From contig JAHJHI010000049.1 of the NCBI GenBank assembly GCA_018824085.1, positions 1-64,000 of the forward strand: a stretch of 64,000 bases of DNA, read 5' to 3'. This document shows, in pieces, positions 35,601 through 56,057 of the stretch; the first letter of the stretch is position 1, and each line of letters opens with the position of its first letter. The DNA comes from Gammaproteobacteria bacterium (lineage in GTDB: Bacteria > Pseudomonadota > Gammaproteobacteria > Burkholderiales > Rhodocyclaceae). The notes beneath the pieces were generated by a model. That model was given only the letters and a program-made list of their open reading frames with translations. It was not told where the DNA came from and did no database searches. The translations under genes were made by a program, and so were the position numbers.

Positions 35601-38600
35601 CAGCGACAGCGACCCGGTCGCCGACACCGACTTCGACTTGCTCTGCTGGCTGCTCGCGTCGATCGCGACGCCGATGGCGACGGACAGCTGCTCGCCGGCC
35701 GCCAGCGCCTGCACCGTCACGTCCTGCGTGTTGCGCAGCGTCGAATCCTCGATCAGGCCCTCGACCATGTTGTCGATCAGATTGACCGACACGCTGCCGC
35801 TGATCGCCGCCGACTTGCTCTGGCCCGGATTGTTGGCGCGCGTGAAGGCTGCGGCGCCCGACGCGGTGACGATGTCCAGATCCGACACGCCGAGCACGGT
35901 GAGCGTGCTGGCCGGGCCGGCATTGCCCTGGTCCAGTTCGACGCCGGCCACGCGTGCGCGGGTGACCAGCGTCATTTCATTGACTGCCGCACTGCCCGCG
36001 CCGGACAGGCCGAAGGTCGGCTTGGCCGGCGTGCCCTGGGCGCCGGTGCCGCCCTGCTGCGACGTCGACGTCGGCTTGATGTCCACCAGTTTGGCGAGCT
36101 TGCCCTGCACCGCGTCGTACTTGCTCTTGATGCTGCCGAAGAAGCCGCCGCTGCTGCTGTTGCCGCTGCTCGTGGCCAGCGCGCCGGTCACGGCGATCGC
36201 CTCCGTGCGGCCGCTGGTGCGCGCCTCGACCGACACATTGCCGGCCTGCACGATGGCGTCCGCGATGGTGAGCTGGCTGCTGCGCGCGCCGCCGTCGATC
36301 GCTTCCAGGTCGTTGTCGGCGATCTGCGCCTCGACCATGCCGGTGACGCCGTTGTAGGCGATGCCCACGCCGACCCCGGCCGATTCCGACTTGTTGAATC
36401 CGCCGGCGATGGACCACAGCACCGGATTGTCTTCCGCGCCCACGGTGAGCTTCGCGGCGCGCAGCGTGGCTTCGTCGTCGACCAGTGCGCGCGTGGTGTT
36501 GTCGACCTCGACGATGGATACCGAACCGTTGATGCCGAAGCTCGATCCGTAGCCGGCCAGCGCCGCCAGCGAAATCACCAGATCGTGGCCTTCGGCCTTG
36601 ATGCGGATGGCGTTGCTCAGGCGCGTGCCGGTCACCGCGTGGCTGCGCTGACCGGCGACGGCGCCGGTCACGCTTTCGGTCACGCCCTGGATGACGGCCC
36701 CCTCGCGCACGAACACCAGGCTTTCGCCGGTGATGCCTTCCTGCGTGTAGGCCACGCCGAGCGACTTGCCGCCGTTGCCGGCACCGGTGTCGCCCGGCAG
36801 GAACTGCCCGCCGTGAAACATCAGCGTCACATCACGCCTGGCCGTGATGTCGGCCGGCGCGGCAAACGCCCAGGACTGCGTGACCTGCTCGTCGTCCGGC
36901 GTCGCCGCGTCGTCGGCCACCGTTTCGAAATCGTAGGTCCAGTCACCGCTCGCGTTGCCGGTGAGGTTGAGACGGGCGCCCTCCTTCACCTCGGTCTGCG
37001 CGCTGTGCGAGAAATCGAGCTTGCTGAACGAACCGGACAGGGAGATGGCGCCGTTGGAATTGTCCGATGTGGACTTTGCCGACGACGCGCCGTTGAACAC
37101 GTCGAGGATGCCGGTCAGGTCGTTGAACCAGTCCTTCACCGTCGACAGACCGTCCCAGCGCGTGAAGCTGCCACCGGTGAGCAGCGTTTCGCGCACCGGT
37201 ATCACGACGTCGGACGCCACCGCGATGCGCGGCGCGGTCACGACGGCGGCGCGCCCGATGGTGGCGCGCGCATCGTGCGTGAAGTTGCCGATGGCGATGC
37301 CGGCGGAGAAGGTGTTGCGCGCCGTGTTGGCTGCGGCGCGCTCGCGCGACTGCGAAATGGCGGAGGCTTCGGCCATGACCTGAATGTCTGCGCCGAGCGT
37401 GCGCGCAACAACGGCGACCTGATCGCCGGCATGCACCTTCGCTCCGTCGCCTATGGCCGCACTCGCGCTGGCGTCGCTGTCCACCCATGCGATGCCGCCG
37501 CCGATGCGCAACGGCGTCGATACCGGCCGCTCCGGATCCGCCGCCTTGTCGTCCGTGCCGGCGCCGCCGAGCAGCTTGTCCCACAGCTTGTCTTCCAGCG
37601 TTCCGGCGGTGTCGGTCACTGGCTTGAGCTTGTCCTTCACCGCGTCGCTGATCTGTTCGTTCAGCGTGCCGCCGACCTTGGCCTCCGCCGTGGTCGCATT
37701 CTTCGTGTTGTCGTTGATCGCCAGCACCTGCACGCGGGTCGCGTCGCCGACGTCGGCGTTCAGCGTGGCGTTGGCCTGTGTCGACAGCTCGCCGACCGCA
37801 ATCGCCGCCGCCGCGCGCCCTTCGTTGCCGAGCGAGGCGGTGACCGAATTGGTGAAACTGTTGCGATTGGTGGCCGCCACCGTCACGTCACCCGACACCT
37901 GGATATCGGCGCCGGCTTCCACCGTGGCATTCGCCCGGATGTCGGCGTAGGTGAGGCCGAGCGCAAAGCTCATCGTCGAACTTGCGTCTTCGCCCGGATC
38001 GGCCGCCTCGACGGCCGCTTCTATCGTTGCCGTGTTGTTGGCGCGCACCGTCAGGCTGGCGCCGCGCACGGTTGCGCCGGACTTCACGTCAACGGTGGCG
38101 GTCGATGTGTTGCGTGCGTACAGCGCGCCCAGGCCGAGCGGCGTATTGACCTGCGTGCCCGGTCCGCTGATGCCGGTGTCCGGCGCCGCGCCTGCGGACG
38201 TCACGTTGTCGGCGCTCAGGCTCACGCCGTTCGTGCCTTCGACCAGCGACCCCGCCTTGAGCGTGATGGTGGCGGTGCCCACGGCCTGCGAGTGGACGAT
38301 GTTCATGCCGAGCAAGGTGGCGCCGAAGCCGAGCAGTGCGGTTGCCGATTCGGTCGCCAGACTGGTCGCGTTCTGTTCGAGCGAACCGTCATCGAACAGC
38401 CAGCGGTTCTGCACGTCGGTCGACGCGCTCATCGTGACCTGGTCGCCGCGCACCGTCGCGTTGTCGAGCACGATGCTGGCGCTTGCCTCGCGGTAGCCGA
38501 GGATGCTTGCGTCCGACGTCTTGTGCGCGGTCAGCGTGACGGTGCCGCCCGCGATGTTGCCGGTGCCGTGCGCCAGCACCTTCGAGCCGGACTTCAGTTC

Positions 38601-39926: not shown

Positions 39927-40473
39927 GTTGCGTCCCTGAGTGGTTTTGCCGCGGACGACAGATCGGTTTGTAAGAATTTTTCTTACATTATTGTAAGGAC
40001 TTTTTGCAGAAGCAAGCCGCCTGCTTGACCGGATCGTGACCGTCGGCACAAACAAAAGAGTTGCCGATCCGCGAATCACGACGCGCCAGATCCCGCCCGG
40101 AAACCCTTGTGGCATAAGGATTTCGCATGACGTCGCCGAGCAGCATGACAGCACCCGAGCGAACGGCCTGCACGAACGGACCGCCACCGGCCCTGATCCC
40201 GTCAACTTTGTCAACGGTCGGCGGAACCGGCAGACCCGGTGCGGCATCGAAACGCCGGGACGTGCACCAATCTGCGCCCTGTCTGGACACCGGAATCATT
40301 CATTGGCGCCGCATGCAGCCTGATGTTGCGGCGCAATCGCGCAACTCACCGTGGCCGCTGCCCGCAGCGCCAGCAGGCTCGCGGGCGACCGCCTCGCGAG
40401 CCATGTGTCAAGGCTGTTACAGCAACGCGGCGCGGCGTACAGTGCGGCCCATTCATGGCGGGAGGAGCCCCAT
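39927..40473. other. Intergenic region between divergent adhesin and nrdJ genes
   Basis: About 547 bp without a supported gene; ORFs here have no ribosome-binding sites and lack recognisable products. It should hold both promoters. The adhesin side (39960-40010) is notably AT-rich with the inverted repeat described separately. I looked for a cobalamin riboswitch ahead of nrdJ and saw no B12 box. Confidence 0.6.
39970..39986. promoter_or_regulatory. GTAAGAA-TTT-TTCTTAC inverted repeat upstream of the adhesin
   Basis: Perfect 7-bp arms with a 3-bp centre lie 44 bp from the adhesin start, in an AT-rich patch. A third GTAAG copy lies at about 39993. The position fits an operator over the adhesin promoter or leader. 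The binding protein is unknown. Confidence 0.5.
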
Positions 40474-43362
40474 ATGCAACAGATTGACCTGGTCCCGATG
40501 ACCGAACAAGAAAAGATCGCCTGCCTGCCGGAGCAGGAAATCTCGAGCGAAGTCCTCATTGAAAAATACGCCAAGGGCGGCGAGACGACGGTGGCCGAAG
40601 TGCGTCGCCGTGTCGCACGGGCGCTGGCCCAGGCGGAGAGCGAAGACCGCCGCGCTCACTGGGAAGCAAAATTCCTCGACGCGCAGGATCGCGGTTTCGT
40701 GCCGGCCGGGCGCATCAGTTCGGCCGCCGGCACCCAGCTCACCGCCACGCTGATCAACTGCTTCGTGCAGCCGGTGGGCGACTCCATCACCGAGATCGAG
40801 GACGAACGCCCGGGCATCTACACGGCACTCGCCCAGGCAGCGGAAACGATGCGTCGCGGCGGCGGCGTCGGCTACGACTTTTCCAGCATCCGCCCGGTCG
40901 GTGCTCGCGTGCGCGGCACGCAGTCGCGCGCCTCCGGCCCGGTCAGCTACATGCGCGTGTTCGACCGCTCATGCGAGACGGTGGAGTCCGCCGGCAGCCG
41001 GCGCGGCGCGCAGATGGGCGTCCTGCGCTGCGATCACCCGGACATCGAGCAGTTCATCCACGCGAAGGACCATGGCGACCTGACCAACTTCAACGTGTCG
41101 GTCGGCGTGACCGACATCTTCATGAAGGCGGTCGAAGCCGACACCACCGTCGACCTCGTGCACAAGGCCGAACCGGCGCCGGACATCCGCGCGGCCGGCG
41201 CCTACCAGCGCGAGGACGGCATGTGGGTTTATTCCAAGCCGCGTGCGCGCGAGCTGTGGGACCAGATCATGCGCTCGACGTACGACCACGCCGAGCCGGG
41301 CATTCTCTTCCTCGACCGCATCAACCGCGACAACAACCTCTATTACTGCGAAACGATAGAGGCGACCAACCCGTGCGCCGAACAGCCGCTGCCGCCCTAC
41401 GGCTGCTGCGACCTGGGGTCGATCAACCTGACCCGCTTCGTGCAGAAGCCGTTCAGCGAACAGGCCGAATTCGACTTCGACGGCTTCCGTGAAGTCGTCG
41501 CCGTGGCCACCCGCATGCTGGACAACGTGCTCGAAGTGACGCACTGGCCGCTGCCGCAGCAGAAGGACGAAGCGATGGCCAAGCGCCGCGTCGGCCTCGG
41601 TTTCACCGGCCTGGGCGACACGCTCATCATGCTGCGCCAGCGCTACGACACGCAGGAAGCGCGGCTGATGGCGTCGCGCATTTCCGAAGTGATGCGCGAC
41701 ACCGCCTATCTGGCGTCGGTCGAGCTGGCCAAGGAACGCGGCAGCTTCCCGCTGTTCAACGCCGACATGTACCTGTCCGGCGGCAACTTCGCGTCGCGCC
41801 TGCCGGCCGACGTGAAGGAACAGATCCGCAAGCACGGCCTGCGCAATTCGCACCTGCTGTCGATCGCGCCCACCGGCACCATTTCGCTGGCCTTCGCCGA
41901 CAACGCGAGCAACGGCATCGAGCCGCCCTTCTCCTGGACCTACACGCGCAAGAAGCGCATGCCCGACGGCACGTTCAAGGAATACGCAGTCGAAGACTTC
42001 GCCTGGCGCCTGTACAAGCACCTCGGCGGCGACATGGACCGCCTGCCGCCCTGGTTCGTCACCGCGCTGGAGATTTCCGCCGCCGCGCACAAGGACATGG
42101 TCGCGGCCGTCGCGCCCTACATCGACACCGCCATTTCCAAGACGGTGAACGTGCCGGCCGACTACCCCTACGCCGACTTCGAAGACCTCTATCTCGCGGC
42201 ATGGAAATCCGGCCTGAAGGGGCTCGCCACCTACCGCCCGAACAGCGTGCTCGGCAGCGTGCTGTCGGTCGACGCACCGAAGACGGAAGAGAAGATGCAG
42301 CCGCACGACGTGGACATCGTCACCGGCGCCAACCAGCGCCTGTCCATCGGCGCCCTGCCCGCCCCGGTGCTGGCCAGCCTGCGCTGGCCCGGCCGCCCGG
42401 ACATGGCGGACGGCAACCCGAGCTGGACCTACATGCTGAAAACGCCGGGTGGCGAATTCGCGCTGTTCGTCGGCCACACCGAAAGCGAAGGCCCGGACGG
42501 ACGCATCCAGACGCTGCCGTTCGAAGTGTGGGTCAATGGCGCGAACCAGCCACGTGGCCTCGGCGCCGTCGCCAAGACGCTGTCGATGGACATGCGCGCG
42601 AATGATCCGGGCTGGCTCAAGCTCAAGCTCGACGTGCTGGCGCGCACCGTCAGCGACCAGAGCTTCGACCTGCCCATGCCGCCCAGCGGTGAGCTGCGCC
42701 GCATGCCCGGCGTCGTCGCCGCCTTCGCCAACGTGATCGGCTACCGCTGCGACAAGCTCGGCGCACTCGAGCGCGAAGCCCCCACCTCGGTGCTCGACAC
42801 GCTGTTCGCCGTACAGGAGCCGAAGACCGGCACCGACGGCACGCTGAGCTGGACGGTCGACATCAGCAACCCGGCCACCGGCGAAGACTTCGTGCTCGGC
42901 CTGAAGGAAGTCACGCTGCCGGGCGGCGAAACGCGCCCCTACTCGGTGTGGCTGTCCGGCAACTACCCGCGCGCACTCGACGGCCTGACCCGCATCCTCG
43001 CGCTCGACATGCGCGTCATGGACCCGGCGTGGATCGGCATGAAGCTGCGCAAGCTCATCAGCTACCCGGAACCGCTCGGCGACTTCATGGCCTTCGTGCC
43101 CGGCACGCGCCGCCAGCAGAACTGGCCGTCAACCGTCGCCTACGTCGCCCGCCTCATCATCCATCGCTACGCAATGCTCGGCATCCTCGACGAGAACGGC
43201 TACCCGATGCGCGAAATGGGCATCCTCGAAGCACCGCGCGACGACAACGAACCCAGGCTGATGCAGGGCGCGCTGTGCAACGAGTGCGGCAACCAGTCCG
43301 TCATCCGCAAGGACGGCTGCGACTTCTGCACCGCCTGCGGCGCCGTGGGTAGCTGCGGCTGA
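40474..43362 (+). CDS. nrdJ: Adenosylcobalamin-dependent (class II) ribonucleotide reductase
   Basis: A 962-aa class II enzyme reducing ribonucleotides to deoxyribonucleotides with a B12 radical. The catalytic region has the N-terminal cysteine in TLINCFVQP and the thiyl-radical motif [18 protein letters not shown]. It also has [15 protein letters not shown] and [19 protein letters not shown]. Two TSCPD-type domains follow (around residues 630-740 and 770-880), then a C-terminal cysteine-rich zinc-ribbon tail ([21 protein letters not shown]) that probably relays electrons. No N-terminal ATP-cone is visible. The ATG at 40474 has GGAGGAG upstream; the longer frame from 40351 lacks this. It allows DNA synthesis with or without oxygen. 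Confidence 0.93.
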
Positions 43363-43492
43363 CACCCGCCGGCTGCGTCCGGCAGACACCGGCCGGGCGC
43401 AGCACCACGGTGAACAACGCTCAGCCGGGGCCGCCCCGGCGTCCGCACTCCCGCTGCGGCGCGACCATCAGCGACCATCAGGAGCCCCCGAC

Positions 43493-43768: not shown

Positions 43769-44191
43769 AGATGCCGCACATAGCGCCTTGTTCAGCCTTT
43801 GCTTGCTTCACCCCAACAGACATCCTCGCACCGCACCGTTCTCGCATGCAGGCAGAACAACAACGCGTCACCCCCGACGACGTGCCTCGACCCAGCCGCC
43901 ATTTCGCATTGCCGAGCCACCACGGTGGCAACCCGAGAAATGATGCAGATGGCAAAATCGGGAACTCGAAGCAGGCAAGGTGCTTGTATCTGGAAGTCAC
44001 GAACCGGCGATAGGCCTCTTTGCCCGAAAATGCCTACCACTTTCACACCCCGAGGATCTGGCGCATTCGCGACTGCGATCCGACCGCCTGCTCGCAGACA
44101 ACATCCGTGACGGAGCCTGAGGCTTGACGACTGCTGGCCAGGTCTTCCGCCACACCACGTCCTGGCGATGACAAAGAGAGGATTTCGGTTC
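43769..44191. other. Gene-poor left flank of the restriction-like operon
   Basis: About 420 bp with only short, unsupported ORFs. I see no tRNA, integrase or clear direct repeat. The promoter of the downstream operon should lie here; a TTGACG at about 44125 has no convincing -10 partner. Confidence 0.5.
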
Positions 44192-47086
44192 GTGACACAG
44201 CAACTTCTGACTCCCCACCAGAGCCAGTACTACGCGTGGCTACTGACCCGCCGTGCAGCAGGCGACAGCGTGGAGTCGCTCGCAACCACCCTTGTGGACT
44301 CGCAGGTTGACCTCAACCCCCATCAGGTGGAGGCAGCGCTGTTCGCGTGTGCCAATCCGCTCTCGCGAGGCGTCATCCTGGCCGACGAGGTCGGGCTCGG
44401 AAAAACCATCGAAGCCGGGCTCGTGATCTCCCAGCGGTGGGCCGAGCGCCGTCGCCGCATCCTGATCATCGTGCCGGCCAACCTGCGCAAGCAATGGCAT
44501 CAGGAACTGCAGGACAAGTTCAATCTGCAGGGTGTGCTGCTGGAAGCCAGGAGCTACAACGCCCTTCGCAAACAGGATTGTCCGAATCCATTTCAGATGG
44601 CGTCCGGCCCCGTCATCTGCTCATACCAGTTCGCGAAAACGAAGGCGGACGACATCAAGGCCATCGACTGGGACCTGGTCGTGCTCGATGAAGCGCATCG
44701 GCTGCGCAACGTCTACAAGACCAGCAACGTGATCGCCAAGACGCTGAAAGACGCGCTGGCCCACGTTCACTCCAAGGTGCTGCTGACCGCGACGCCGTTG
44801 CAGAACTCGCTGCTGGAGCTTTACGGTCTGGTCAGCATGATCGACGACCGCGTCTTCGGTGACATCGACAGCTTCCGCTCACAGTTCACCGCACAGTCCA
44901 GGGAACAGGCATTTGCCGCACTGCGCACCCGGCTCGCACCGGTCTGCAAACGCACGCTGCGCCGCCAGGTTCAGCAATACGTCCCCTACACCGCGCGCAG
45001 GGCCATCGTCGAAGAGTTCACCCCCTCAACCGAGGAGCGGGAGCTGTCCCGCCTCGTCGCCGACTATCTGCGGCGCCCCAACCTGAAGGCGCTGCCGGAA
45101 GGGCAACGCCAACTGATCTCCTTGGTGCTGTGGAAGCTGCTGGCGTCTTCCACGCACGCCATCGCGGGCGCGCTGGAAACCATGACCAAGCGTTTGCAGG
45201 GAAAACTGGACGAGTCGGCGAATCTTCCCGACCTGACTGACGAGCTCGATGAGGACTACGAATCGCTCGATGAGATCAAGGAGGAGCGCGCCGACGAATG
45301 GGGCAAGGGCGGGGGCGGAGAGGACGCCGCGACCTCATCGTCCACTGTCAATGAGCGGGAGACCTTGGCGCAGGAAATCGCGGAGCTGCAGCACTTCAGG
45401 ACACTGGCGACCAAGATCCGCGAGAACGCGAAAGGCACCGCGCTGCTGACCGCGCTGGACAAGGCCTTCGCCGAACTGGAACGGCTGGGCGCAGCAAAGA
45501 AGGCCATCATCTTCACCGAATCGAAACGCACGCAGGCCTATCTGCTTTCGCTGCTCGAAAACACGCCCTACGGCAAGGGCATCGTGCTGTTCAATGGCAC
45601 CAACAGCGACGCACGGGCGCAGGCCATCCATGCCGAGTGGCTCAAGCGGCACGCAGGCACGGATCGCATCACCGGCTCGAAAACCGCCGACACCCGCGCG
45701 GCACTGGTCGAGCACTTCAGGGATCGCGGCACCGTCATGATCGCCACCGAGGCCGGCGCCGAAGGCATCAACCTGCAGTTCTGCTCGCTCGTCATCAACT
45801 ACGACCTGCCGTGGAACCCGCAGCGCATCGAACAGCGCATAGGCCGCTGCCACCGCTACGGGCAGAAGTTCGACGTGGTGGTGGTGAACTTCGTCGATCG
45901 CAGCAACGAAGCCGACGCCCGCGTCTACGAACTGCTGGACCAGAAATTCCAGCTCTTCGACGGCGTATTCGGCGCCAGCGACGAAGTGCTGGGCGCCATC
46001 GGCTCCGGCGTCGACTTCGAGCGGCGCATCGCCGACATCTACCAGAACTGCCGCGACCCCGAGGCCATCAAGGCCAGCTTCGAACAACTGCAGCACGACC
46101 TTTCCGGCGAAATCAGCGAGGCCATGGTCAAGACGCGGCAAATCCTGCTCGAGAACTTCGATGAAGAGGTTCAGGAAAAGCTGCGTATCCGGGCCGAAGA
46201 CAGTCGAGCCACGCGAAGCAAGTATGAGCACATGCTGCTGGACCTCACGCGTGCCGAGCTGGCGGATTGCGCCCTGTTCGACGACGACGGCTTTGTGCTG
46301 CAGCGCCTGCCCGCCAGCGCCTTGCATGATGTTGAGCTTGGGCGGTATGAACTGCCTCGCCGATCCGGCGATTCCCACCTCTATCGTATCGGCCACCCCC
46401 TCGCCGAATGGGTGACGGAGCAGGCCAAGAACCGTGAGTTGCCCGGCACGAAGCTGGTGTTCGATTACGAGGCCTACGGCACGCAGATCAGCACGCTCAA
46501 ACCCTATCGCGGCAAGACCGGCTGGCTGACGCTGAAGCTGGTGTCGGTTGAAGCGCTCGGAAACCTGGAACAGCGCCTGCTGGTGGCGGCCGTCACGTCA
46601 GACGGCCATGTGCTCGAAGAAGACGACCCCGAAAAGCTGCTTCGCCTGCCCGCGCATGCGCAGCCAGCGGAACACGCCGACGCCGAAGTCCCCACCCTCA
46701 TCGGGGAGATCGCGGCACGCAAGTCAGCCGTGCTCCGGGAAATCAACCAGCGCAACCTGAGCTACTTCGAGCTGGAGCTAAACAAGCTGGACGCGTGGGC
46801 AGACGACCTCAAACTCGGACTTGAGCAGGAGATCAAGGCAATAGATCGAGACATTAAGGAAGTGCGACGGCAAGCCACTATTTCGCCGACATTAGAGGAA
46901 AAGTTGACCCTGCAGAGGCAACAAAAAGACCTCGAAGCTAGAAGAGCAAAACTTCGCCGAGAAGTCTTTGATCGCCAAGATGCCATCGAACTAGAACGGA
47001 ATGAACTTATTGCAGAGCTTGAGAGGAGAGTTCAGCAACAGGTTTTTGAGCAAAATCTATTCACGATGGAATGGGAGTTAAGGTGA
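44192..47086 (+). CDS. SNF2-family helicase/ATPase of a defence-like operon
   Basis: About 964 aa, SNF2/RapA-like superfamily 2 ATPase. Walker A is DEVGLGKT (about residues 65-72), the DEAH box LDEAH (about 165-169), motif III TATPLQN. The second helicase lobe shows IIFTESKRTQAYLL, TEAGAEGINLQFCS and the arginine-finger motif QRIGRCHRYGQ. The C-terminal third is charged and predicted coiled coil. I prefer GTG 44192 (AGAGAGGA 9 nt upstream; MTQQLLTPHQSQYYAW matches relatives) to ATG 44168. Relatives include the DrmD helicase of DISARM and lone SNF2 genes in defence islands. Its stop overlaps the next start (TGATG). The last 250 bp become AT-richer, matching the following gene. Confidence 0.85.
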   Translation: MTQQLLTPHQSQYYAWLLTRRAAGDSVESLATTLVDSQVDLNPHQVEAALFACANPLSRGVILADEVGLGKTIEAGLVISQRWAERRRRILIIVPANLRKQWHQELQDKFNLQGVLLEARSYNALRKQDCPNPFQMASGPVICSYQFAKTKADDIKAIDWDLVVLDEAHRLRNVYKTSNVIAKTLKDALAHVHSKVLLTATPLQNSLLELYGLVSMIDDRVFGDIDSFRSQFTAQSREQAFAALRTRLAPVCKRTLRRQVQQYVPYTARRAIVEEFTPSTEERELSRLVADYLRRPNLKALPEGQRQLISLVLWKLLASSTHAIAGALETMTKRLQGKLDESANLPDLTDELDEDYESLDEIKEERADEWGKGGGGEDAATSSSTVNERETLAQEIAELQHFRTLATKIRENAKGTALLTALDKAFAELERLGAAKKAIIFTESKRTQAYLLSLLENTPYGKGIVLFNGTNSDARAQAIHAEWLKRHAGTDRITGSKTADTRAALVEHFRDRGTVMIATEAGAEGINLQFCSLVINYDLPWNPQRIEQRIGRCHRYGQKFDVVVVNFVDRSNEADARVYELLDQKFQLFDGVFGASDEVLGAIGSGVDFERRIADIYQNCRDPEAIKASFEQLQHDLSGEISEAMVKTRQILLENFDEEVQEKLRIRAEDSRATRSKYEHMLLDLTRAELADCALFDDDGFVLQRLPASALHDVELGRYELPRRSGDSHLYRIGHPLAEWVTEQAKNRELPGTKLVFDYEAYGTQISTLKPYRGKTGWLTLKLVSVEALGNLEQRLLVAAVTSDGHVLEEDDPEKLLRLPAHAQPAEHADAEVPTLIGEIAARKSAVLREINQRNLSYFELELNKLDAWADDLKLGLEQEIKAIDRDIKEVRRQATISPTLEEKLTLQRQQKDLEARRAKLRREVFDRQDAIELERNELIAELERRVQQQVFEQNLFTMEWELR

Positions 47087-49887
47087 TGATTGATACGCAC
47101 GACTACCCAGGCTCACGCTGGTGGAAGTTCGACTTTCACAATCACACGCCTGCGTCGCTGGACTACAAGGGCAACAAGACCATCACGCCGCGCAAATGGC
47201 TGCAAGACTATCTGGCCGAGGACATTCAGTGCATTGTCGTCACCGACCACAACACCGGCGGCTGGATCGACAAGCTGAAGGCAGAACTGGCGACGTTGAA
47301 GCAGGAAGATGCGGCAAAGTGGGGAACAGTGACACTATTTCCCGGCATGGAGTTGTCGTGCAACGGTGGCGTGCATCTGAAAGTGATTCTTGACCCGACG
47401 AAAGGCACCTCAGACATTGACGCTATTCGCGGTAGCGTCGGTTATTCGGGCACACCAGGGGACAGCAATGGCGTAACCAGTCAAAGCGTTGAACAGGTCA
47501 TTCGTACTATTCAGTCGTCGGGTGGAGTCGCTTGTGCCGCGCATGTCGATCAACCCAAAGGCCTGCTGGTCTCACTAACGGACCACAACACCCTTCAGCC
47601 GATCTTCAAACTATTGGATGCAATCGAGGTTATAAATCCAGCAGCAACCTGCTTACAGCCTCATGCTGCGGCCTTAACAGACATCGCTTTCGTACTCGGA
47701 TCTGATAGTCACCAACCTAAAGACATTGGCCGAGGCTACACATGGGTGAAGATGTCAGCCCCTTCCATAGAAGGCTTGAAGCTGGCACTTCTTGATCCTG
47801 AATCAGCCATCCGCCGCAGTGACAGATGCCCAAACTACCCACAACAACTAAGCCATCCGAAGATCAAGAGCATCACGGTTGAAAAGCTGTTCCTAAGACG
47901 GAAGGACCCACTCACGATCCATTTCAACCCCGGCTACAACGCCTTGATTGGTGGCAGGGGAAGTGGAAAGTCGACGATATTGGAGTGCCTACGCTTGGGG
48001 TTGGCACGAGCAAACGAATTGATGGCAGTACGATCCGACAGCGCGTTGAGGCAATCATTTGAGAACTTCAAGAACGAAAAAACAGGGCGCCATCAGCTTG
48101 GGATGATGCTTCACGATACGCGCATCTCGGTCGAGGTGTCCAAAGGACACGGTAATCTTGAAGAGCGGTTTGAGTATCGATGGAGCAAAGGAGCTGACGC
48201 CAAGTTTGCAGTGTCGGTGCGGCGCTTGGACCGCGGTACATGGCAGGCAACGCAACTAACCGAGGAGCAAGCTCGCAACAACTTCCCGGTCAAGATTTTC
48301 AGCCAGAAGCAAATTCTTGCGTTAGCCGACAACCCTCAGCATCTGATTCATTACATCGACGATGTGCTGGGGGGTACCAAGGAGGCTTGGGCGCAAGGCT
48401 TCGCAATCAAGCGAGAGGTATTGACGGCGGCCAGAAAGCGCGTCCACGCACTGGAGCTTGAGATCGCGCAGAAGCCTGCTGTTGAACTTCAGCACAAGGA
48501 GGCATCGCGCAAGGCCAAGGTCTTCGCAGCCTCGAACTTTGGCGAAGCACTCAAAGCCTACCAGCGCGCTGGCAAACAACAGCGAGCGGTAGCCGGATTT
48601 TTCAAGGAGCTTGGCGATGAGGTTCAGGCACTGCAAACCAGTGTCGAGAAAGCCGTCAATCTGAAAACTCTGGCGCTTACCGACTTCGCGGATACGACAC
48701 CAGCTGAACAAGCGGAGAAGCAGGCGACGGAAACATTGACACAAAAGCTCGCTCGAAACTTCGACCAGATCACGACCTTGGTTGCCAGCATGCAGGCAGA
48801 CCTTAATTTTGCGAAAGTGGCCAGTGGCGCGAGCGCATGGCACCAGGAAAACAAAGTGCCTCTCGATGAGTACGCAAGCATCGTGGCGGAACTCAATGCC
48901 CAAGGCATCACCAACGCAGAAGAAGCTTCCCAGGCCGTGGCGCTCGAAGAGAAGCTAAAAAAGCAGTTGGATCAGTTCAATGCCATCAGTACCAATCTTG
49001 AGCACGCTCGAAAAGCCATTGTGGATGCGCAAGCCGCGTTGCACCAGGAACGTCAAGGTTTGACTGTGTTGCGGCAAGACTTCCTTGATCAAGTGCTGGT
49101 GAGCGTGCCTTCATTGAAGATCACGCTGAGCACTATGGCCGATGCGGAAGACGGTGCCATCAGTCTGCGGGAGAAACTTCGCATTGAAACGGAAGGTACT
49201 TTCGCAAAGGAAATCTACGGCGAGACCGATGACGATCCGCCCAAGCCTTGCGGCATGGTCTGGGACTTGGTGAATCCAGCCTTGGCATCGTCCGTGCCTG
49301 AGCGGTTGCAGGAGATCAAGCAGTCTCTTGAGGAGAAGAACGAGCAGGTGCTGAACACCAAGCTGCATGGAAAGTTCGTCAAGAGGTTACGGGACATGAA
49401 GCCAGAAGTCGCTTCGGTCGTCTTCGACGAACTAGCGGCCTGGTTCCCAGAGGATGCAGTTGATCTTCAGTACAAGCGTGACGAGTCGAGTTCGTTCCAA
49501 AGTCTTCAGCAGGCATCAGCAGGTCAGAAAACTGCAGCCATCTTGTCGTTCCTGCTGGCACACGGCAGTGAGCCACTGCTGATGGATCAACCCGAAGATG
49601 ACCTCGATAACGCGCTGGTCTCTGAGTTGGTGGTGAAACAACTCAGAAACAACAAGAATCGCCGCCAACTTATTGTCATTACCCATAACGCCAACATCGT
49701 CGTGAACGGCGACGCCGAACTGGTCATGCCTATGGAATTCGTGGGCGGTCAGATCGTGAACAACACGGCAGGTGGGCTACAGGAGAGGGCAGTGAGAAAG
49801 AAGGTCTGCGACATCATGGAGGGCGGGGAAAGGGCCTTCGAGCAACGTTACAAGCGAATACTGAAAGATATGCGAGAGAAGGTTTAA
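47086..49887 (+). CDS. TrlF-like protein: PHP domain fused to SMC/ABC-type ATPase
   Basis: About 933 aa. The N-terminal PHP metal-dependent hydrolase domain has H18-N-H20 (KFDFHNH), D54-H55 (VVTDHN), the PGMELSCNGGVHLKVI segment, ACAAHVDQP and GSDSHQP, so most metal ligands are intact. An ABC/SMC-like ATPase follows: Walker A GGRGSGKST near residue 289, a long coiled-coil middle, the signature SAGQK near 811 and Walker B LLMDQPEDDLD near 831. The domain order matches TrlF-family proteins found near RNA-repair or defence genes. It probably hydrolyses a phosphodiester after ATP-gated sensing of nucleic acid. Start 47086 has GGGAG and AAGG upstream; ATG 47071 is also in frame. GC content is visibly lower than flanking genes. 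Confidence 0.82.
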   Translation: MIDTHDYPGSRWWKFDFHNHTPASLDYKGNKTITPRKWLQDYLAEDIQCIVVTDHNTGGWIDKLKAELATLKQEDAAKWGTVTLFPGMELSCNGGVHLKVILDPTKGTSDIDAIRGSVGYSGTPGDSNGVTSQSVEQVIRTIQSSGGVACAAHVDQPKGLLVSLTDHNTLQPIFKLLDAIEVINPAATCLQPHAAALTDIAFVLGSDSHQPKDIGRGYTWVKMSAPSIEGLKLALLDPESAIRRSDRCPNYPQQLSHPKIKSITVEKLFLRRKDPLTIHFNPGYNALIGGRGSGKSTILECLRLGLARANELMAVRSDSALRQSFENFKNEKTGRHQLGMMLHDTRISVEVSKGHGNLEERFEYRWSKGADAKFAVSVRRLDRGTWQATQLTEEQARNNFPVKIFSQKQILALADNPQHLIHYIDDVLGGTKEAWAQGFAIKREVLTAARKRVHALELEIAQKPAVELQHKEASRKAKVFAASNFGEALKAYQRAGKQQRAVAGFFKELGDEVQALQTSVEKAVNLKTLALTDFADTTPAEQAEKQATETLTQKLARNFDQITTLVASMQADLNFAKVASGASAWHQENKVPLDEYASIVAELNAQGITNAEEASQAVALEEKLKKQLDQFNAISTNLEHARKAIVDAQAALHQERQGLTVLRQDFLDQVLVSVPSLKITLSTMADAEDGAISLREKLRIETEGTFAKEIYGETDDDPPKPCGMVWDLVNPALASSVPERLQEIKQSLEEKNEQVLNTKLHGKFVKRLRDMKPEVASVVFDELAAWFPEDAVDLQYKRDESSSFQSLQQASAGQKTAAILSFLLAHGSEPLLMDQPEDDLDNALVSELVVKQLRNNKNRRQLIVITHNANIVVNGDAELVMPMEFVGGQIVNNTAGGLQERAVRKKVCDIMEGGERAFEQRYKRILKDMREKV

Positions 49888-51581
49888 TGGTGTCTAAGCA
49901 AAAACTAGAACTGACTTGGATCGGGAAGGAGAAGCGGCCGAGACTTGAGCCGCGCATCCTTCTTGAAGATCCCGTCAAGTCTTACCACGCCCAGCACCGC
50001 GTGACGGATAGAGATCTGTTCAACAACCGGCTGATTTTTGGTGACAACCTGCTGGCGCTGAAGGCGCTGGAGCAGGAGTTCTCGGGCAAGGTGAAGTGCG
50101 TGTTCATCGATCCGCCCTACAACACCGGCAGCGCTTTCACCCATTACGACGACGGGCTGGAACATTCGATCTGGCTGGGGCTGATGCGCGACCGGCTGGA
50201 AATCATCCGGCGCCTGCTGGCTGAGGATGGTTCGTTGTGGATCACGATTGACGACAACGAGGCGCACTACCTCAAAGTGCTATGTGACGAAGTGTTTGGG
50301 CGTGCGAACTTCGTAGCAAATGCGATTTGGCAGAAGAAGTACACCGTATCGAACGACGCTAAATGGTTGGCAGATACGCACGACCACATCCTCATCTACG
50401 CAAAGAACAAGGAAACGTGGCGCCCCAATCGCCTTGAGCGAACTGCGGAAATGGACAGCCGCTACAGGAATCCCGACAACCACCCGAAAGGTCCTTGGAA
50501 AGCCACCCCCTTGTATGCGAAGCGCACAGGCTCGGAGAAGGAGCAGGCGTTCTCCTTTCGATTCAAGAACGGCGTTGTGTGGACTCCTCCTCGCGGCACT
50601 TCACCCAGGTTTCCGGCGGAAGCTCTCCGACAAATGGATGAGAACGACGAAATCTGGTTTGGCAGCAACGGTGACGCAAACCCTTCGAGAAAGACCTTCC
50701 TCAGCGAGTTGAAGCTATCGGCCCCGCCGGCACCTACTCTTTGGCTCCACAGTGACGCGGGCAACAATCATGAGGCACGAGAAGAGGTCAAGGCAATTAA
50801 CCCGCACGATGCCTTCGCCACACCTAAGCCCGAGAAATTGCTCAAGCGAGTTATCGGATTAGCGACCAACCCCGGCGACCTCGTCCTCGATTCCTTCGCC
50901 GGTTCCGGCACCACCGGCGCCGTGGCCCACAAGATGGGCCGCCGCTGGATCATGGTGGAGCTGGGCGAGCACTGCCACACGCACGTCATTCCGCGTCTGA
51001 AGAAGGTGATCGACGGCGAGGACAAGGGCGGCGTCACCGAAGCGGTCGAGTGGAAAGGCGGCGGCGGTTTCCGCTACTACAAGCTCGCGCCCAGCCTGAT
51101 CGTGAACGACCGCTGGGGAAATCCGGTCATCAACCCGGAATACAACGCGGCGCAACTGGCCGAGGCGCTGGCCAAGCTGGAAGGCTTCAGCTACGCCCCG
51201 TCGGAGTTGCACTGGTGGCAGCACGGCCATTCGAGCGAGCGCGATTTCATCTATGTCACGACGCAGAACCTGTCGGCGGAACAACTGCAGGCACTGTCGG
51301 ATGAAGTCGGCAGCGAGCAGAGCCTGCTGGTGTGCTGCGCCGCTTTTCACGGGGTGAGCGCCGCCGCGGCGTCGGAGCGCTGGCCCAACCTGACGCTGAA
51401 GAAGATTCCGAAGATGGTGCTGGCCCGCTGCGAATGGGGTCACGACGACTACAGCCTGAATGTGGCGAACCTGTCGATGGCGGCGCCGGAACCCGAGACG
51501 ACAGCCGCCGCCCGGCCAAGCCGCAAGGACGCCCGGACACCCGATCTGTTTGGCGATGTTGCCGGTGACGAAGCGCCATGA
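49887..51581 (+). CDS. Type III-like (beta class) DNA adenine methyltransferase
   Basis: A 564-aa Mod-like amino-methyltransferase. The catalytic motif IV DPPY (about residues 75-78) precedes the AdoMet-binding motif FAGSGTT (about 337-343), the order of beta-class enzymes such as type III Mod. The intervening part (about 130-325) is the expected target-recognition region, and its DNA is less GC-rich than both flanks. The start overlaps the TrlF stop (TAATG), and the stop overlaps the RhuM start (ATGA). It should modify host DNA, probably N6-adenine, at the site sensed by the Res-like partner two genes on. Confidence 0.88.
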   Translation: MVSKQKLELTWIGKEKRPRLEPRILLEDPVKSYHAQHRVTDRDLFNNRLIFGDNLLALKALEQEFSGKVKCVFIDPPYNTGSAFTHYDDGLEHSIWLGLMRDRLEIIRRLLAEDGSLWITIDDNEAHYLKVLCDEVFGRANFVANAIWQKKYTVSNDAKWLADTHDHILIYAKNKETWRPNRLERTAEMDSRYRNPDNHPKGPWKATPLYAKRTGSEKEQAFSFRFKNGVVWTPPRGTSPRFPAEALRQMDENDEIWFGSNGDANPSRKTFLSELKLSAPPAPTLWLHSDAGNNHEAREEVKAINPHDAFATPKPEKLLKRVIGLATNPGDLVLDSFAGSGTTGAVAHKMGRRWIMVELGEHCHTHVIPRLKKVIDGEDKGGVTEAVEWKGGGGFRYYKLAPSLIVNDRWGNPVINPEYNAAQLAEALAKLEGFSYAPSELHWWQHGHSSERDFIYVTTQNLSAEQLQALSDEVGSEQSLLVCCAAFHGVSAAAASERWPNLTLKKIPKMVLARCEWGHDDYSLNVANLSMAAPEPETTAAARPSRKDARTPDLFGDVAGDEAP

Positions 51582-52714
51582 ATGGCAAACCCGGTGCAAA
51601 GGGCCCGGCTGATGCGCCTCGCGAGCCTGTCGGTGGAGTTCTGCAGTCGGGTGCTCAGAGCGCGTTCCTGCTCTATCAGACCGAGGACGCGCAGACGCGC
51701 GTTCAGTTGCGGCTGCATGGCGATTCGGTCTGGGTGACGCAAAAGCAGCTCGCGGAGCTGTATCAGGTGAGTGTGTCCACCATCAATGGTCACCTGCGCG
51801 TGCTGTTTCAGGACGCGGAGCTGGCGGCCGATCGAACTATTCGGAAATTCCGAATAGTTGCCCGGGAAGCCGCGCGGGACGTGGAAAGGCTGGTGGATCA
51901 CTACAACCTTGAGGTGATCCTGCACCTGGGTTACCGGGTGCGCTCGCACCGTGGAGCGCAGTTCCGCCGCTGGGCGACCAGACAGTTGCAGGACTATCTG
52001 GTCAAAGGGTTCCTGCTGGATGACGAACGCTTCAAGGCGGGTCAGGACGCCGACTATTTCGAAGAGCTGCTGGCGCGCATCCGCGACATCCGCTCTTCGG
52101 AAAAGGTGTTCTGGAAGAAGGTGCTGGACATCTTCGCCACCAGTATCGATTACGACCCGAACGCGGCCACCTCGCAGCAATTCTTCGCCACGGTCCAGAA
52201 CAAGATGCACTGGGCGGCGCACGGACATACCGCTGCGGAGTTGCTGGTATTGCGCGCCGATGCGCAGGCGCCCTACATGGGGCTGACCAGTTGGCAGGGG
52301 CAGACCAGGGGCGGGCTACCGCGCAAGGCGGACGCGGGCATTGCCAAGAATTACCTGAACGAGGCGGAAGTGGGAACGCTCAATCGCATCGTCAATGCCT
52401 ACATCGAAGTGGCGGAACTGCAGGCCAGCGCAAAGCAGCCGATGACGATGCGCGACTGGGTCACTCAGCTGGATGATTTCCTGCGGCTGACGCGCAAGGA
52501 CATCCTGACCCACGCGGGCAAGGTTTCCGCGGATGCCGCGCTGGCCAAGGCTCAGGCGGTCTATGCGCAATATCAGCAGCTCACCCGGGAACAACTCGGC
52601 ACCACACCTTCGCAGGTGGAAAGAGACTTCGAAGCTGCGATAGCACAGCCGGTCAAGCGGCTTGAGAAGACGAGAAAAGCCGCACCCAAAAAGAAGCAGG
52701 GAGATGATCAATGA
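51578..52714 (+). CDS. RhuM-family protein
   Basis: A 378-aa protein of the virulence RhuM family. It contains an N-terminal HTH-like segment (VWVTQKQLAELYQVSVSTIN, about residues 48-67) and the family hallmark RLVDHYNLEVILHLGYRVRS followed by FRRWATRQLQDYLVKGF. The C-terminus is lysine-rich (KKKQGDDQ). RhuM proteins occur in pathogenicity and defence islands, often beside restriction genes; their biochemical activity is unknown. It lies between the methyltransferase and the restriction subunit with 4-nt overlaps at both ends, which argues for a component of the same system rather than a passenger. Confidence 0.85.
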   Translation: MNGKPGAKGPADAPREPVGGVLQSGAQSAFLLYQTEDAQTRVQLRLHGDSVWVTQKQLAELYQVSVSTINGHLRVLFQDAELAADRTIRKFRIVAREAARDVERLVDHYNLEVILHLGYRVRSHRGAQFRRWATRQLQDYLVKGFLLDDERFKAGQDADYFEELLARIRDIRSSEKVFWKKVLDIFATSIDYDPNAATSQQFFATVQNKMHWAAHGHTAAELLVLRADAQAPYMGLTSWQGQTRGGLPRKADAGIAKNYLNEAEVGTLNRIVNAYIEVAELQASAKQPMTMRDWVTQLDDFLRLTRKDILTHAGKVSADAALAKAQAVYAQYQQLTREQLGTTPSQVERDFEAAIAQPVKRLEKTRKAAPKKKQGDDQ

Positions 52715-55446
52715 GCGCGCGCGTCCTGAACCACATTACCGGGCGCCTGTCGCTGCGTCCGCCCCAGGCGGAATCGCTTGTGAAATTGGTACGTGCGCTC
52801 GACGCCGCACCCGGCCTGCTTGGCCATGACCAGAATGTGGCGGCCATCCTTGCCACACTGAAAGCCGAGTTCCCCACGCTGGAAGACTTCGAGCGCGAGT
52901 TTCCGTCGCTGTGCTTCGCGCTGGCCACCGGCGTGGGCAAGACGCGCCTGATGGGGGCTTTCATCGCCTACCTGCATCTGGCCCACGGCATCAACAACTT
53001 CTTCGTGCTGGCGCCCAATCTGACGATCTACAACAAGCTGATCGCCGACTTCACGCCGAACACGGCCAAGTACGTGTTCAAGGGCATCGCCGAGTTCGCC
53101 CAGCAGCCGCCACTCATCATCACCGGCGACAACTACGACCAGACCGGTGCGGCGGTGACGGATGCACCGGCGGGCTTCGCCCACGACGTGCGCATCAACG
53201 TCTTCAACATTTCCAAGATCAACTCCGAGGTGCGTGGCGGCAAGGAGCCGCGCATCAAGCGCATGAAAGAGGTGCTGGGCGACAGCTACTTCAACCATCT
53301 GGCCAATCTGACCGACCTCGTGCTGCTGATGGATGAGTCGCACCGCTACCGGGCGAGCGCCGGAGTGCGGTCGATCAACGAACTGAAGCCGCTGTTCGGT
53401 CTGGAGGTCACCGCCACGCCCTTTGTGGAATCCGCGCGCGGCCCGGTGCCGTTCAGGAATGTGGTGATGGACTACCCCTTGGCGCGGGCGATGGAAGATG
53501 GCTTCGTCAAGGAGCCCGCCGTCGTGACCCAGCGCAATTTCGACCCGCGGGCGCACGCACCGGACGAGATCGAGAAGATCAAGCTGGAAGACGGCGTTCG
53601 CCTGCACGAAAGCACCAAGGTCGAGCTGCTCACCTACGCGCGCGAGAACGGTGTGCCGGCGGTGAAGCCCTTCATGCTCGTGATCGCACGGGACACGACC
53701 CACGCGTCACAGCTCAAGACGCTGATCGAGTCTTCCGCCTTCTACGAGGGGCGCTATGCGGGCAAGGTCATCCAGGTGGATTCCAGCCGTAGCGGCGCGG
53801 AAGAGGAGGACATGATCGCCCGGCTGCTGGCGGTGGAAAGCGTGAATGAGCCGACCGAAATCGTGATTCACGTGAACATGCTCAAAGAGGGCTGGGACGT
53901 GACCAACCTCTACACCATCGTGCCTTTGCGCGCGGCCAATGCGCGGACGCTGATCGAGCAGTCCATCGGCCGCGGCCTGCGGCTGCCGTATGGCAAGCGC
54001 ACGGGCGTGGCGGCGGTGGATCGGCTGAACATCGTCGCGCACGACAAATTCCAGGAGATCATCGACGAAGCCAACCGGGGCGATTCGCCGATCCGGCTGA
54101 AGCAGGTGATCCTCGAAGCGCCGAGCGCAGACGACCGGAAGGTGAGCGTTCAGGTGGGCTCGGGCGCGATGACGGCGCTCGGGCTCGCACCGGCGCCGGT
54201 CATGGGCACCGGGGCGGCCAACGCGGACACGACACCGGCCGACACGCCGCCTTCGCCGGTGTTCGCAAGCGAACGCGAGCGGCACGCTGCGCGCGTGGTG
54301 ATGGATGTGATCGCCCAGTACGAGGTGAAACGCGACCTGGTACCGACCAGCCAGGCACTGCTCAAGCCAGAAGTGCAATCGGCCATCCTGGCCGAGGTGG
54401 TCGAGCGATTGAAGCCGGTTCAGGGCGAGCTGCTGGCGGAAGCGGACGATGCGGCGCCCGTCCTGGATCTTTCAGCAGTGATCGCAAAGACGACCGAAAT
54501 CGTCGTCCGGCAGATGATCGACATCCCCCGCATCGCGGTCGTGCCGACAGGCGAAATCACGACCGGTTTTCATCCGTTCAAGCTCGGCGCGCTGCCCAAC
54601 TTCCAACCCGGACAGCGGGAAATCGTGGGGCAGGAACTGCGCACCAACGAACAGTTCACGCTGAGCCGCGAAGCCGGTATCCGGGAACAGCGCTTCGAGG
54701 ACTACATCGTCAGGAAGCTGATCGACTACGACGACATCGACTACTTCACGCAAGCCGAACTGCTGTACGACCTCGCGGGTCAGGCGGTCGCCCACTACCA
54801 GACGCAGAACTACTCGGAAAACGAACTTCACGAGGTATTCGACTCTTATGGCGCGGAGCTTGCGCGGCTGATTCGCGCCGAAATGCTGGCGCATTTCTGG
54901 GAAGAAGCCACGGACTACGAGGTACAGGTGAGCCGGGGTTTCACTGAACTCAAACCCTGCAACTACACCGCGGTCGCTGGACAGACGGCGCACCATTTCC
55001 GCGAAACCGTGGCCGAACCCGGCAGGATCAAGCAGATGCTGTTTGGCGGGTTTGCGCGCTGCCTGTACCCACTGCAGAAGTTTGACTCGGACACCGAGCG
55101 ACGCTTTGCGGTCATCCTTGAGCGCGACGCATCAAAGTGGTTCAAGCCTGCCAAGGGGCAGTTCCAGATCTACTACAAACTGGGCAGCGAGCAACCGGAA
55201 TACATACCCGACTTCGTGGCCGAGGTTGATTCAATGATCTTCATGGTGGAAACCAAGGCGCAAGGTGACATCGACACACAGGAAGTGCAGGCCAAGGCCG
55301 CTGCCGCCGCACGCTGGAGCAAACACGCTTCGGATCATGCAGCGGGCGTCGGCGGAAAACCGTGGCGCTACTTGCTGGTGCCACATGACGAAATCTCCGA
55401 ATCAAGGCGGCTCTCAGACTTCTTGCGCTTTGGGGTGAATGGCTAG
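52711..55446 (+). CDS. Type III-like restriction helicase-nuclease (Res)
   Basis: A 911-aa superfamily 2 helicase. Walker A is ATGVGKTRLMGAF (GVGKT about residues 74-78), the DEAD-type box MDESH (about 207-211), motif III VTATPF, and the motif VI region IEQSIGRGLRLPYGKR is complete. The C-terminus has a PD-(D/E)XK nuclease core: PDF near residue 833 and ETK near 847. This is the layout of type III Res subunits and related standalone helicase-nucleases. It would translocate on and cleave unmodified DNA. Start overlaps the RhuM stop by 4 nt. It is the last gene of the operon; scar sequence follows. Confidence 0.88.
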   Translation: MSARVLNHITGRLSLRPPQAESLVKLVRALDAAPGLLGHDQNVAAILATLKAEFPTLEDFEREFPSLCFALATGVGKTRLMGAFIAYLHLAHGINNFFVLAPNLTIYNKLIADFTPNTAKYVFKGIAEFAQQPPLIITGDNYDQTGAAVTDAPAGFAHDVRINVFNISKINSEVRGGKEPRIKRMKEVLGDSYFNHLANLTDLVLLMDESHRYRASAGVRSINELKPLFGLEVTATPFVESARGPVPFRNVVMDYPLARAMEDGFVKEPAVVTQRNFDPRAHAPDEIEKIKLEDGVRLHESTKVELLTYARENGVPAVKPFMLVIARDTTHASQLKTLIESSAFYEGRYAGKVIQVDSSRSGAEEEDMIARLLAVESVNEPTEIVIHVNMLKEGWDVTNLYTIVPLRAANARTLIEQSIGRGLRLPYGKRTGVAAVDRLNIVAHDKFQEIIDEANRGDSPIRLKQVILEAPSADDRKVSVQVGSGAMTALGLAPAPVMGTGAANADTTPADTPPSPVFASERERHAARVVMDVIAQYEVKRDLVPTSQALLKPEVQSAILAEVVERLKPVQGELLAEADDAAPVLDLSAVIAKTTEIVVRQMIDIPRIAVVPTGEITTGFHPFKLGALPNFQPGQREIVGQELRTNEQFTLSREAGIREQRFEDYIVRKLIDYDDIDYFTQAELLYDLAGQAVAHYQTQNYSENELHEVFDSYGAELARLIRAEMLAHFWEEATDYEVQVSRGFTELKPCNYTAVAGQTAHHFRETVAEPGRIKQMLFGGFARCLYPLQKFDSDTERRFAVILERDASKWFKPAKGQFQIYYKLGSEQPEYIPDFVAEVDSMIFMVETKAQGDIDTQEVQAKAAAAARWSKHASDHAAGVGGKPWRYLLVPHDEISESRRLSDFLRFGVNG

Positions 55447-56057
55447 AAGAAGACGCTGCGCCGCTTCTTTCCGGCAAGCATCCGACCGAGAGCGATCTGG
55501 CCTTCGGTCTGGACCAGTGCGTCGAGATGTTCGAGGGCCGCCAGCATGTCGCTGCCAAGCGTTCGACCTGCGCCGTCTTCCCTTTGGTGATGTAGCACGT
55601 AATCATCGCCCGGGTCTGAGCACCTCAACGTCGAGGCATGACGAAGGTGTTTATGGAAGAGAAGAAGTCGGGACGTCGCTTCACTGAGGAATTCAAGGTC
55701 GAAGCGGTCAGCAGGTTACCGAGCGTGGCCATCAGGAAAAGATGTGGCGCAGTCCCGATAGCCGCCCGGTCAAGCCGCTCTGCCTGAGCACACGACCGTG
55801 ACGGTTCGATCCGCCCGTCGGCGCCCCTGTCCCGCACCGGCAGGATTCAGCCAGCCGGCCTCGCCACCCGCTACCCGGCTGGCGGCATTTTTCAGCAGAC
55901 CCGGTCGAACTGCCCGAATCCCGGCGGTACGGCCGTTCTGACGGCCATGCCGGCACGGCGACCAGATTGGAAGACGAGGTACGTGCGGCCCGTTCCGCGT
56001 GAAAGCCACTTCGAGGTCCACTTGAGGCGCAGCTTCGCCCGGCGGAGAGCCGCTCCC
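55447..56057. other. Gene-poor scar region downstream of the restriction-like operon
   Basis: About 600 bp with no complete gene. A 61-codon minus-strand frame (55443-55628) contains LAALEHLDALVQTEGQIALGR, which looks like residual coding sequence but matches nothing I recognise. An IS3-type transposase head is at 55653. The remainder is unassigned. Confidence 0.5.
55653..55735 (+). pseudogene. IS3-family OrfA transposase 5' remnant, frameshifted
   Basis: ATG at 55653 gives MEEKKSGRRFTEEFKVEAV, the typical N-terminal HTH start of IS3-group OrfA. After codon 19 a one-base deletion shifts the frame: QVTERGHQ continues in another frame from 55712. Similarity stops at about 55735. It is non-functional. 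Confidence 0.7.

Follow-up and report, generated by a model that had tools for sequence, protein, structure and literature searches.

The question raised by the locus described here is whether five overlapping genes that look like a single defence operon encode one machine or a core system with passengers. The genes lie at positions 44192-55446 of a 64,000-nucleotide stretch of DNA (the window) from a Gammaproteobacteria bacterium placed in the Rhodocyclaceae (GCA_018824085.1, contig JAHJHI010000049.1), and they encode, in order, an SNF2 helicase, a TrlF-type protein, a DNA methyltransferase (Mod), a RhuM protein and a restriction helicase-nuclease (Res). We consider it probable that SNF2, Mod and Res form a conserved, predicted restriction-modification (R-M) core and that TrlF and RhuM are exchangeable genes in two slots within it, likely as a separate second layer of defence. 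Slot 1 is the position between SNF2 and Mod, and slot 2 that between Mod and Res. Judged by comparison of sequences among relatives, the core is constant, the two slots recur, and a segment of Mod is swapped. The features are as follows:

44192..47086, + strand: SNF2 helicase/translocase (DrmD/RapA-like), core gene 1 (PF00176 and PF00271)
47086..49887, + strand: TrlF (PHP plus ABC/SMC-type ATPase), slot-1 cargo (NF045780)
49887..51581, + strand: Mod, beta-class DNA methyltransferase, core gene 2 (PF01555, N6_N4_Mtase)
50343..50858, + strand: putative target-recognition segment of Mod, exchanged among relatives (DNA homology gaps, column identity)
51578..52714, + strand: RhuM, slot-2 cargo (PF13310)
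52711..55446, + strand: Res, SF2 helicase with C-terminal PD-(D/E)xK motif, core gene 3 (PF04851, ResIII)

In the open reading frame (ORF) reading of the window all five genes are open and run in one direction on the + strand, and the junctions read, in operon order, TGATG, TAATG, ATGA and ATGA; SNF2 begins with GTG at 44192 (alternative in-frame ATG at 44168), and TrlF has an alternative in-frame ATG at 47071. The original prediction had described five co-directional overlapping ORFs with these coordinates and junctions, a defence-type operon and a type III-like Mod/Res pair, and all of this was borne out, the pair by its PF01555 and PF04851 matches and by the PADLOC families MTase_III and REase_III. 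It had also taken the overlaps to mean one stoichiometric five-protein system, which does not agree with the related loci: unrelated genes occupy both slots, six loci have no gene in either, and the cargo tracks the core only weakly. Overlapping junctions are the operon's style: of the 30 loci in which slot 2 is empty, 16 show a 4-base overlap between Mod and Res.

The recurrence of the core was examined in three samples. In the first, 61 genomes near that of the window were searched for Mod and 20 stretches were fetched; the close relatives keep SNF2, Mod and Res, and the genes between them differ. A Mod profile run against the 84,980 species of the GTDB collection gave 591 matching stretches, of which the best 80 loci were used: 52 have a gene of the SNF2 family upstream, 48 have both SNF2 and Res, and 14 of the other 28 have less than 6 kb of upstream sequence. 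Altogether 109 stretches were read, of which 94 had a Mod of at least 300 bits and the other 15 were dropped, and the 57 core loci (SNF2, Mod and Res) considered below are the 48 from the best 80, the window, five relatives and three plasmid records; one locus (L019), with no Res assigned after an interrupted Mod, stands outside this set. According to their titles, the 57 loci come from Proteobacteria, Cyanobacteria, Planctomycetes, Acidobacteria, Deinococcus, Bacteroidetes and others. An order SNF2-[slot]-Mod-[slot]-Res that is found at 57 loci from several phyla is not a product of chance. The third sample was anchored on an SNF2 profile, and of the 398 genomes of the phylum in it 19 carry the gene (E 1e-150 or better), among them that of the window; 18 further stretches were fetched, and among the 14 SNF2-anchored loci with at least 8 kb of downstream sequence a Mod-profile match came next in 13, two of the matches being weak (98 bits in L234, 49 bits in L235) and one of the 14 (L231) being the same locus as L098. 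In the one remaining locus of these 14 (L243), no Mod was seen between SNF2 and Res. The Mod loci without SNF2 include a branch whose genomes show no strong SNF2 of the family, made up of L039, L050, L051, L057, L058, L066, L074, L087, L099, L102 and L111, two of which are Bartonella.

Kinds of slot gene were assigned from one or two scanned representatives per kind together with phmmer matches to them of at least 50 bits. The final slot counts use revised labels (n = 57), and the tree, guanine-plus-cytosine (GC), correlation and ATPase counts use earlier labels, which overlooked ORFs whose longest form starts within Mod, such as a DUF1016 gene in L016. Slot 1 held an identified gene in 47 loci, was empty in 6, and had no kind assigned in 4. 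At least 18 kinds of gene were found there: AIPR (13 loci), LmuB-like SMC (6), HEC-01 and AlbA_2 (5 each), DUF2130 (4), TrlF, PLD and DUF1016 (3 each), IetA, PD-Lambda-2_B, PDC-S06 and DUF3800 (2 each), and one each of a Dsr2-like (sirtuin) gene, Fic, DUF6119, Septu, a capP/RmrA-like gene and a PD-T4-6-type kinase; one slot 1 additionally gave an SNF2-profile match. Slot 2 was empty in 30 loci; DUF1016 stood there in 10 and RhuM in 8, with both genes present in two loci, and TrlF and a second Mod were found once each. The remaining 9 had no kind assigned or no ORF of 140 amino acids (aa). Both slots were empty in 6 of the 57 loci. The five-gene order, which the original prediction had proposed to look for across genomes, stood with respect to SNF2 (present at 52 of the best 80 Mod loci) and failed with respect to the other two genes, TrlF being present in 4/57 core loci, one of them in slot 2, and RhuM occupying slot 2 in 8/57. 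TrlF and RhuM together in the window's positions were seen in 2 of the 57.

Eight plasmid records, annotated by others, were also opened. The cargo was an Abi family protein with an IS256 transposase in slot 1 (Salmonella), AIPR with a VapC gene (Deinococcus), an AAA ATPase with DUF4276 in slot 2 (Aeromonas) or a short hypothetical protein (Blastomonas); the Klebsiella and Cupriavidus plasmids have none, that of Roseomonas has a gap of about 1 kb with no listed gene, and in that of E. coli we read a HEC-06-like ORF where the record annotates no gene.

Several lines of evidence indicate that the cargo and the Mod segment have histories different from that of the core. On a tree of 60 loci built from the concatenated core without the Mod segment, the cores that lie closest to that of the window carry IetA (L016, from the same genus), AIPR (L044), IetA (L100), PLD (L033) and SMC (L040), and none of these five carries TrlF; the 29 slot labels needed 40 changes on this tree, between the minimum of 28 and the shuffled mean of 46.6. 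Among the core genes, pairwise identities covary (rho 0.81 for SNF2 with Res and 0.71 for Mod without its segment with Res; 45 loci, 990 pairs), whereas the Mod segment does not follow Res (rho -0.08). For the cargo, rho with Res was 0.25 for AIPR against 0.50 for SNF2 in the same 12 loci, 0.36 for SMC against 0.89 (5 loci), and -0.26 for RhuM against 0.92 (5 loci). In the loci compared, then, the core genes covary, and the cargo and the Mod segment do so little or not at all.

The DNA alignments are similar in outcome. The window matches two relatives (L013 and L040) in SNF2, at both ends of Mod and in Res, and the match is absent at about 47.1-49.9, 50.34-50.86 and 51.49-52.70 kb, although in SNF2 the match to L013 already stops at 46906. 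The break within Mod was seen against L013, L018, L039 and L040, and mean column identity in the Mod segment falls to 0.25-0.5. As these alignments have it, homology to relatives ends at or near the edges of core genes. In the locus from the window's own genus (L016), the first of these three intervals is taken up by IetA and a further gene joined to what is left of Mod, the second by a Mod segment unlike that of the window, and the third by a gene recognised by eye as DUF1016; its SNF2 is without a large middle part and its Mod without the front, through decay or assembly, and its Mod ORF was present in one alignment and excluded from a later one because its front half is another gene. The window TrlF is 86% identical to a TrlF that stands in slot 2 of a Polaromonas locus (L055), where slot 1 holds AIPR and Mod is 61% identical to that of the window; from such cases, cargo is seen to have moved between cores and between slots. 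In 36 of the 48 loci compared, the cargo had a lower GC content than the core (p 0.0005; median difference -0.027), and in the window GC is 0.613 for SNF2, 0.625 for Res and 0.538 for TrlF. The gene preceding the operon (40351-43362, a ribonucleotide reductase by eye) was present in 13/13 genomes of the genus, and Res in 2/13. No clean empty site was found: the homology of four relatives stops at or just past this upstream gene (43362-43395), and no further match follows within the 14.5-15.5 kb compared per relative with the window to 64000.

To judge by family matches, most of the slot genes are related to antivirus genes, either known or candidate. A PADLOC match of at least 60 bits was obtained for 18 of 26 slot-1 proteins against 1 of 10 flanking genes (Fisher p 0.002), the 26 being mostly one per kind and not a random draw of loci; the sole flanking gene to reach this score was Cas3, and adding two further flanking genes gave 2/12 (p 0.0045). 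The flanking control consisted of 10 genes of at least 250 aa out of 83 listed: five downstream genes taken from the top of the listing and five upstream genes belonging to the loci that come next, with one cut-off ORF (L047) skipped. Two further proteins, one encoded on the opposite strand (L014:5069) and one from a helicase/methylase set outside the family (L020:8269), were scanned and not counted as cargo. The enrichment may be partly circular, because PADLOC candidate families were perhaps themselves found by embedding and because ATPase parts are shared. Several slot-1 proteins have no PADLOC name or stood outside the PADLOC scan (L086); those with no match are a DUF6119 protein (L038, 8385-10001), a DUF3800 protein (L107, 9078-9836) and a protein with no Pfam match (L083, 8753-9925), all three candidate new antivirus genes.

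With respect to the two cargo genes of the window, TrlF scores above its family cut-off (NF045780, 606 bits vs 350) and matches PADLOC Ppl at 458 bits; a search of 274 genomes of the class found four others at 33-37% identity (E 1e-50 or better). RhuM is well above its gathering score (PF13310, 356.7 vs 33.7 bits) and matches the PADLOC candidate family PDC-S05 at 443 bits; a structure model built from 8 sequences had a mean predicted local distance difference test score (pLDDT) of 51.6, too poor for use. In one locus (L103), a 1752-aa ORF following Mod scores 178 bits on the TrlF profile and is perhaps a fusion.

The core proteins were compared with characterised families in the same way. SNF2 has RapA as its nearest solved chain and PADLOC scores of 645 bits for DrmD, 136 for one DrmA model and 183 for HmaA. 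Mod matches PADLOC MTase_III at 722 bits and, among solved structures, EcoP15I Mod at 118 bits, and Res matches REase_III at 686 bits and, in a profile comparison, EcoP15I Res weakly (27 bits). As such motifs are understood in these families, a motif scan shows catalytic motifs in SNF2 (GLGKT, DEAH), TrlF (HNH, TDH, SDSH, GRGSGKS), Mod (DPPY, FAGSG) and Res (GVGKT, DESH, PD...ETK). In the SNF2-anchored sample and the plasmids, Mod and Res fall into at least 3 size classes of about 550/910, 640/980 and 1050/1115 aa. A larger sub-type, in which Mod has about 1050 aa and the gene after it about 1115 aa (L114, L118, L120 and L242), shares this SNF2 family; it was found on Klebsiella, Aeromonas and Blastomonas plasmids and in one further genome. 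A tandem pair of Mod genes precedes Res in L062 and L237, as if a second specificity had been stacked.

From these families a mechanism can be proposed in which Mod would methylate a motif set by its swappable segment and Res, aided by the SNF2 translocase, would cut unmethylated DNA in an ATP-dependent manner. Ppl, a relative of TrlF, is described in the available text of a 2026 review (PMC12904381) as a single-gene 3'-5' exonuclease that requires nucleotide depletion and 3'-OH ends. By analogy, TrlF would be a DNA exonuclease restrained by nucleotides and licensed by free 3' ends once infection drains the pool, and RhuM would be an accessory toxin-like protein, in keeping with a proposal that it is a toxin domain accompanying PrrC and R-M genes (PMC3710099, available portions). 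Cargo would be replaced through homologous recombination in the conserved flanking core genes, and a lineage could therefore change its specificity, through the Mod segment, and its back-up effector, through the slots, independently.

A number of observations weigh against this account. SNF2 is missing from 14 of the best 80 Mod loci despite at least 6 kb of upstream sequence, and a strong SNF2 match turned up in no more than 3 of the 14 genomes as a whole; SNF2 and Mod also covary less than the other core pairs (rho 0.50; 45 loci, 990 pairs). None of 200 shuffles gave as few as 40 label changes on the core tree; slot labels are thus not random with respect to the core, and a little inheritance of cargo remains. 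The Mod match is unbroken against L033, the segment being common to both loci, and the difference in GC between cargo and core does not reach the spread that the three core genes show among themselves (0.039). With respect to function, 8 of the 26 slot-1 proteins have a PADLOC score below 60 bits or no match, and some of the matches come from shared ATPase parts. TrlF stays below the cut-off of the Ppl model NF042955 (559 of 1000 bits), which excludes it from Ppl proper, and because of this score the chemistry of Ppl may not carry over. Finally, one of the 56 other core loci (L072) has exactly the window's five families, with a TrlF-family protein about 25-33% identical to the window TrlF over the aligned parts.

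This last locus and the overlap at every junction are the observations that would suit an obligate five-component machine of the DISARM kind. We reject such a machine as highly improbable, given the variability of the slots, the loci with both slots empty, the rarity of TrlF and RhuM and the weak or absent covariation of cargo with core. The main rival of a restriction core with autonomous second-layer cargo, which we favour, is triggering of the cargo by Res-made ends: the core would be a sensor of infection, ends made by SNF2/Res or stalled translocation would trigger end-sensing effectors in the slots, and TrlF would act downstream of restriction. Consistent with this are the ABC/SMC/OLD-type ATPases in slot 1 of 16 of the 45 loci with identified cargo (earlier labels), the activation of Ppl by 3'-OH ends and nucleotide depletion, and the probable end-binding of Lamassu (PMC12904381, in the portions available). 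Most of the cargo is of other classes, however: most often AIPR, and also Fic, kinase, DUF6119 and Dsr2-like genes. Septu, IetAS and DSR2 are known as standalone systems, and Ppl is called a single-gene system in the accessible part of PMC12904381. We therefore regard the sensor reading as unlikely, and direct triggering of TrlF by ends that Res would make as possible. A broader version, in which SNF2-Mod-Res would be a general DNA-surveillance chassis whose ends or translocation on unmethylated DNA trigger any effector placed in its two sockets, with the Mod segment exchanged separately, also seems to us improbable. The cargo might, alternatively, be an addiction or guard device against loss of the restriction system or phage anti-restriction, as PrrC guards EcoprrI. 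VapC and helix-turn-helix genes share a slot in L115, and the available text of PMC3710099 places PrrC/RloC next to RhuM- or Fic/Doc-like genes within R-M operons and proposes RhuM as a toxin, but there is little sign of co-adaptation between cargo and core, and we consider a guard function quite unlikely.

Relative to known systems, the core resembles type III R-M (EcoP15I) in its beta-class Mod and helicase-nuclease Res, and differs in having a dedicated SNF2 gene, two cargo slots and a Res only weakly like that of EcoP15I. DISARM class 1 consists of DrmD, DrmMI and DrmA/B/C. The window shares a DrmD-type SNF2 with it and differs in its type III-like Mod and Res; membership was rejected, as SNF2 falls short of both DrmD cut-offs (651 of 950 bits on DISARM_DrmD_b, 262.6 of 610 bits on the second) and, as the original prediction had also noted, no DrmA, DrmB or DrmC is found among the five operon proteins, to which the search applied. 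Hma (helicase, m5C methylase, ATPase) is likewise a helicase-methylase operon with embedded genes, among them Septu and HEC genes (PMC12255303, PMC11411939, in part); HEC-01 and Septu genes also occur in the slots of the window-type core, and HEC-06 in L019. HmaB is described as an m5C methyltransferase (PMC8565338, text available), and membership in Hma was rejected because Mod belongs to PF01555, with no HmaB among the best 25 of its 60 PADLOC matches and no HmaC among the 7 of Res.

That defence genes can be embedded in restriction, Hma and BREX operons has already been published, in the available portions of the sources: DarTG2 and TgvAB are embedded in type I R-M systems (PMC12255303, PMC11411939), and BREX operons carry back-up effectors, with BREX-related systems combining a Swi2/Snf2 helicase with an N6-methylase (PMC12839542). 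Window-type loci likewise have unrelated defence genes at a fixed place within another system's operon; type I R-M and BREX have other core genes (PglZ, DUF499), and those portions describe no SNF2-Mod-Res core. ARMADA combines a RapA/BrxHII-like helicase with a methylase and has a YprA helicase and a PglX-like methylase as its basis (PMC12458937, text available); YprA and PglX were not named in the family scans of the five operon proteins, which contained no ARMADA model. The TrlF of the Photorhabdus temperature-restriction locus, of the same family, stands with TrlG and TrlR (PMC7554251, accessible text), whereas the window TrlF accompanies Mod, Res and SNF2; a gene that combines the two domains of TrlG (AlbA_2 and HATPase_c_4) serves as slot-1 cargo in 5/57 loci. 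The literature searched gave no description of the SNF2-Mod-Res core or, in agreement with the original prediction, of a characterised system with exactly the window's set, although a 2024 preprint that reportedly introduced guilt-by-embedding may include the core. Standard tools would be likely to report an ordinary type III system here and to overlook SNF2 and the slots, as would be expected from the window's PADLOC matches. One core with two sockets would be a natural catalogue in which every new slot gene is a candidate antivirus gene, and through direct comparison of related cores that differ in their cargo it offers a clean test of whether embedded defences are co-inherited with restriction or wired to it.

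The core was also seen, with and without cargo, on contigs that IMG/VR lists as viral (L147, L149, L153, L155, L157, L158, L167, L186 and L188), which may be proviruses, phage-plasmids or host contamination. A small helix-turn-helix gene lies directly before SNF2 in plasmid copies L113, L114, L116, L118 and L119 and is a possible regulator of the operon; by eye, none was noticed beside SNF2 in the window. Upstream in the window, a 5533-aa ORF (23646-40247, - strand) looks by eye like a large exoprotein of the filamentous-haemagglutinin type and is shadowed by an antiparallel 4781-aa ORF. After Res, positions 55638-55740 resemble by eye the start of what we take, from its motif, to be an IS3-type transposase OrfA, a possible island edge.

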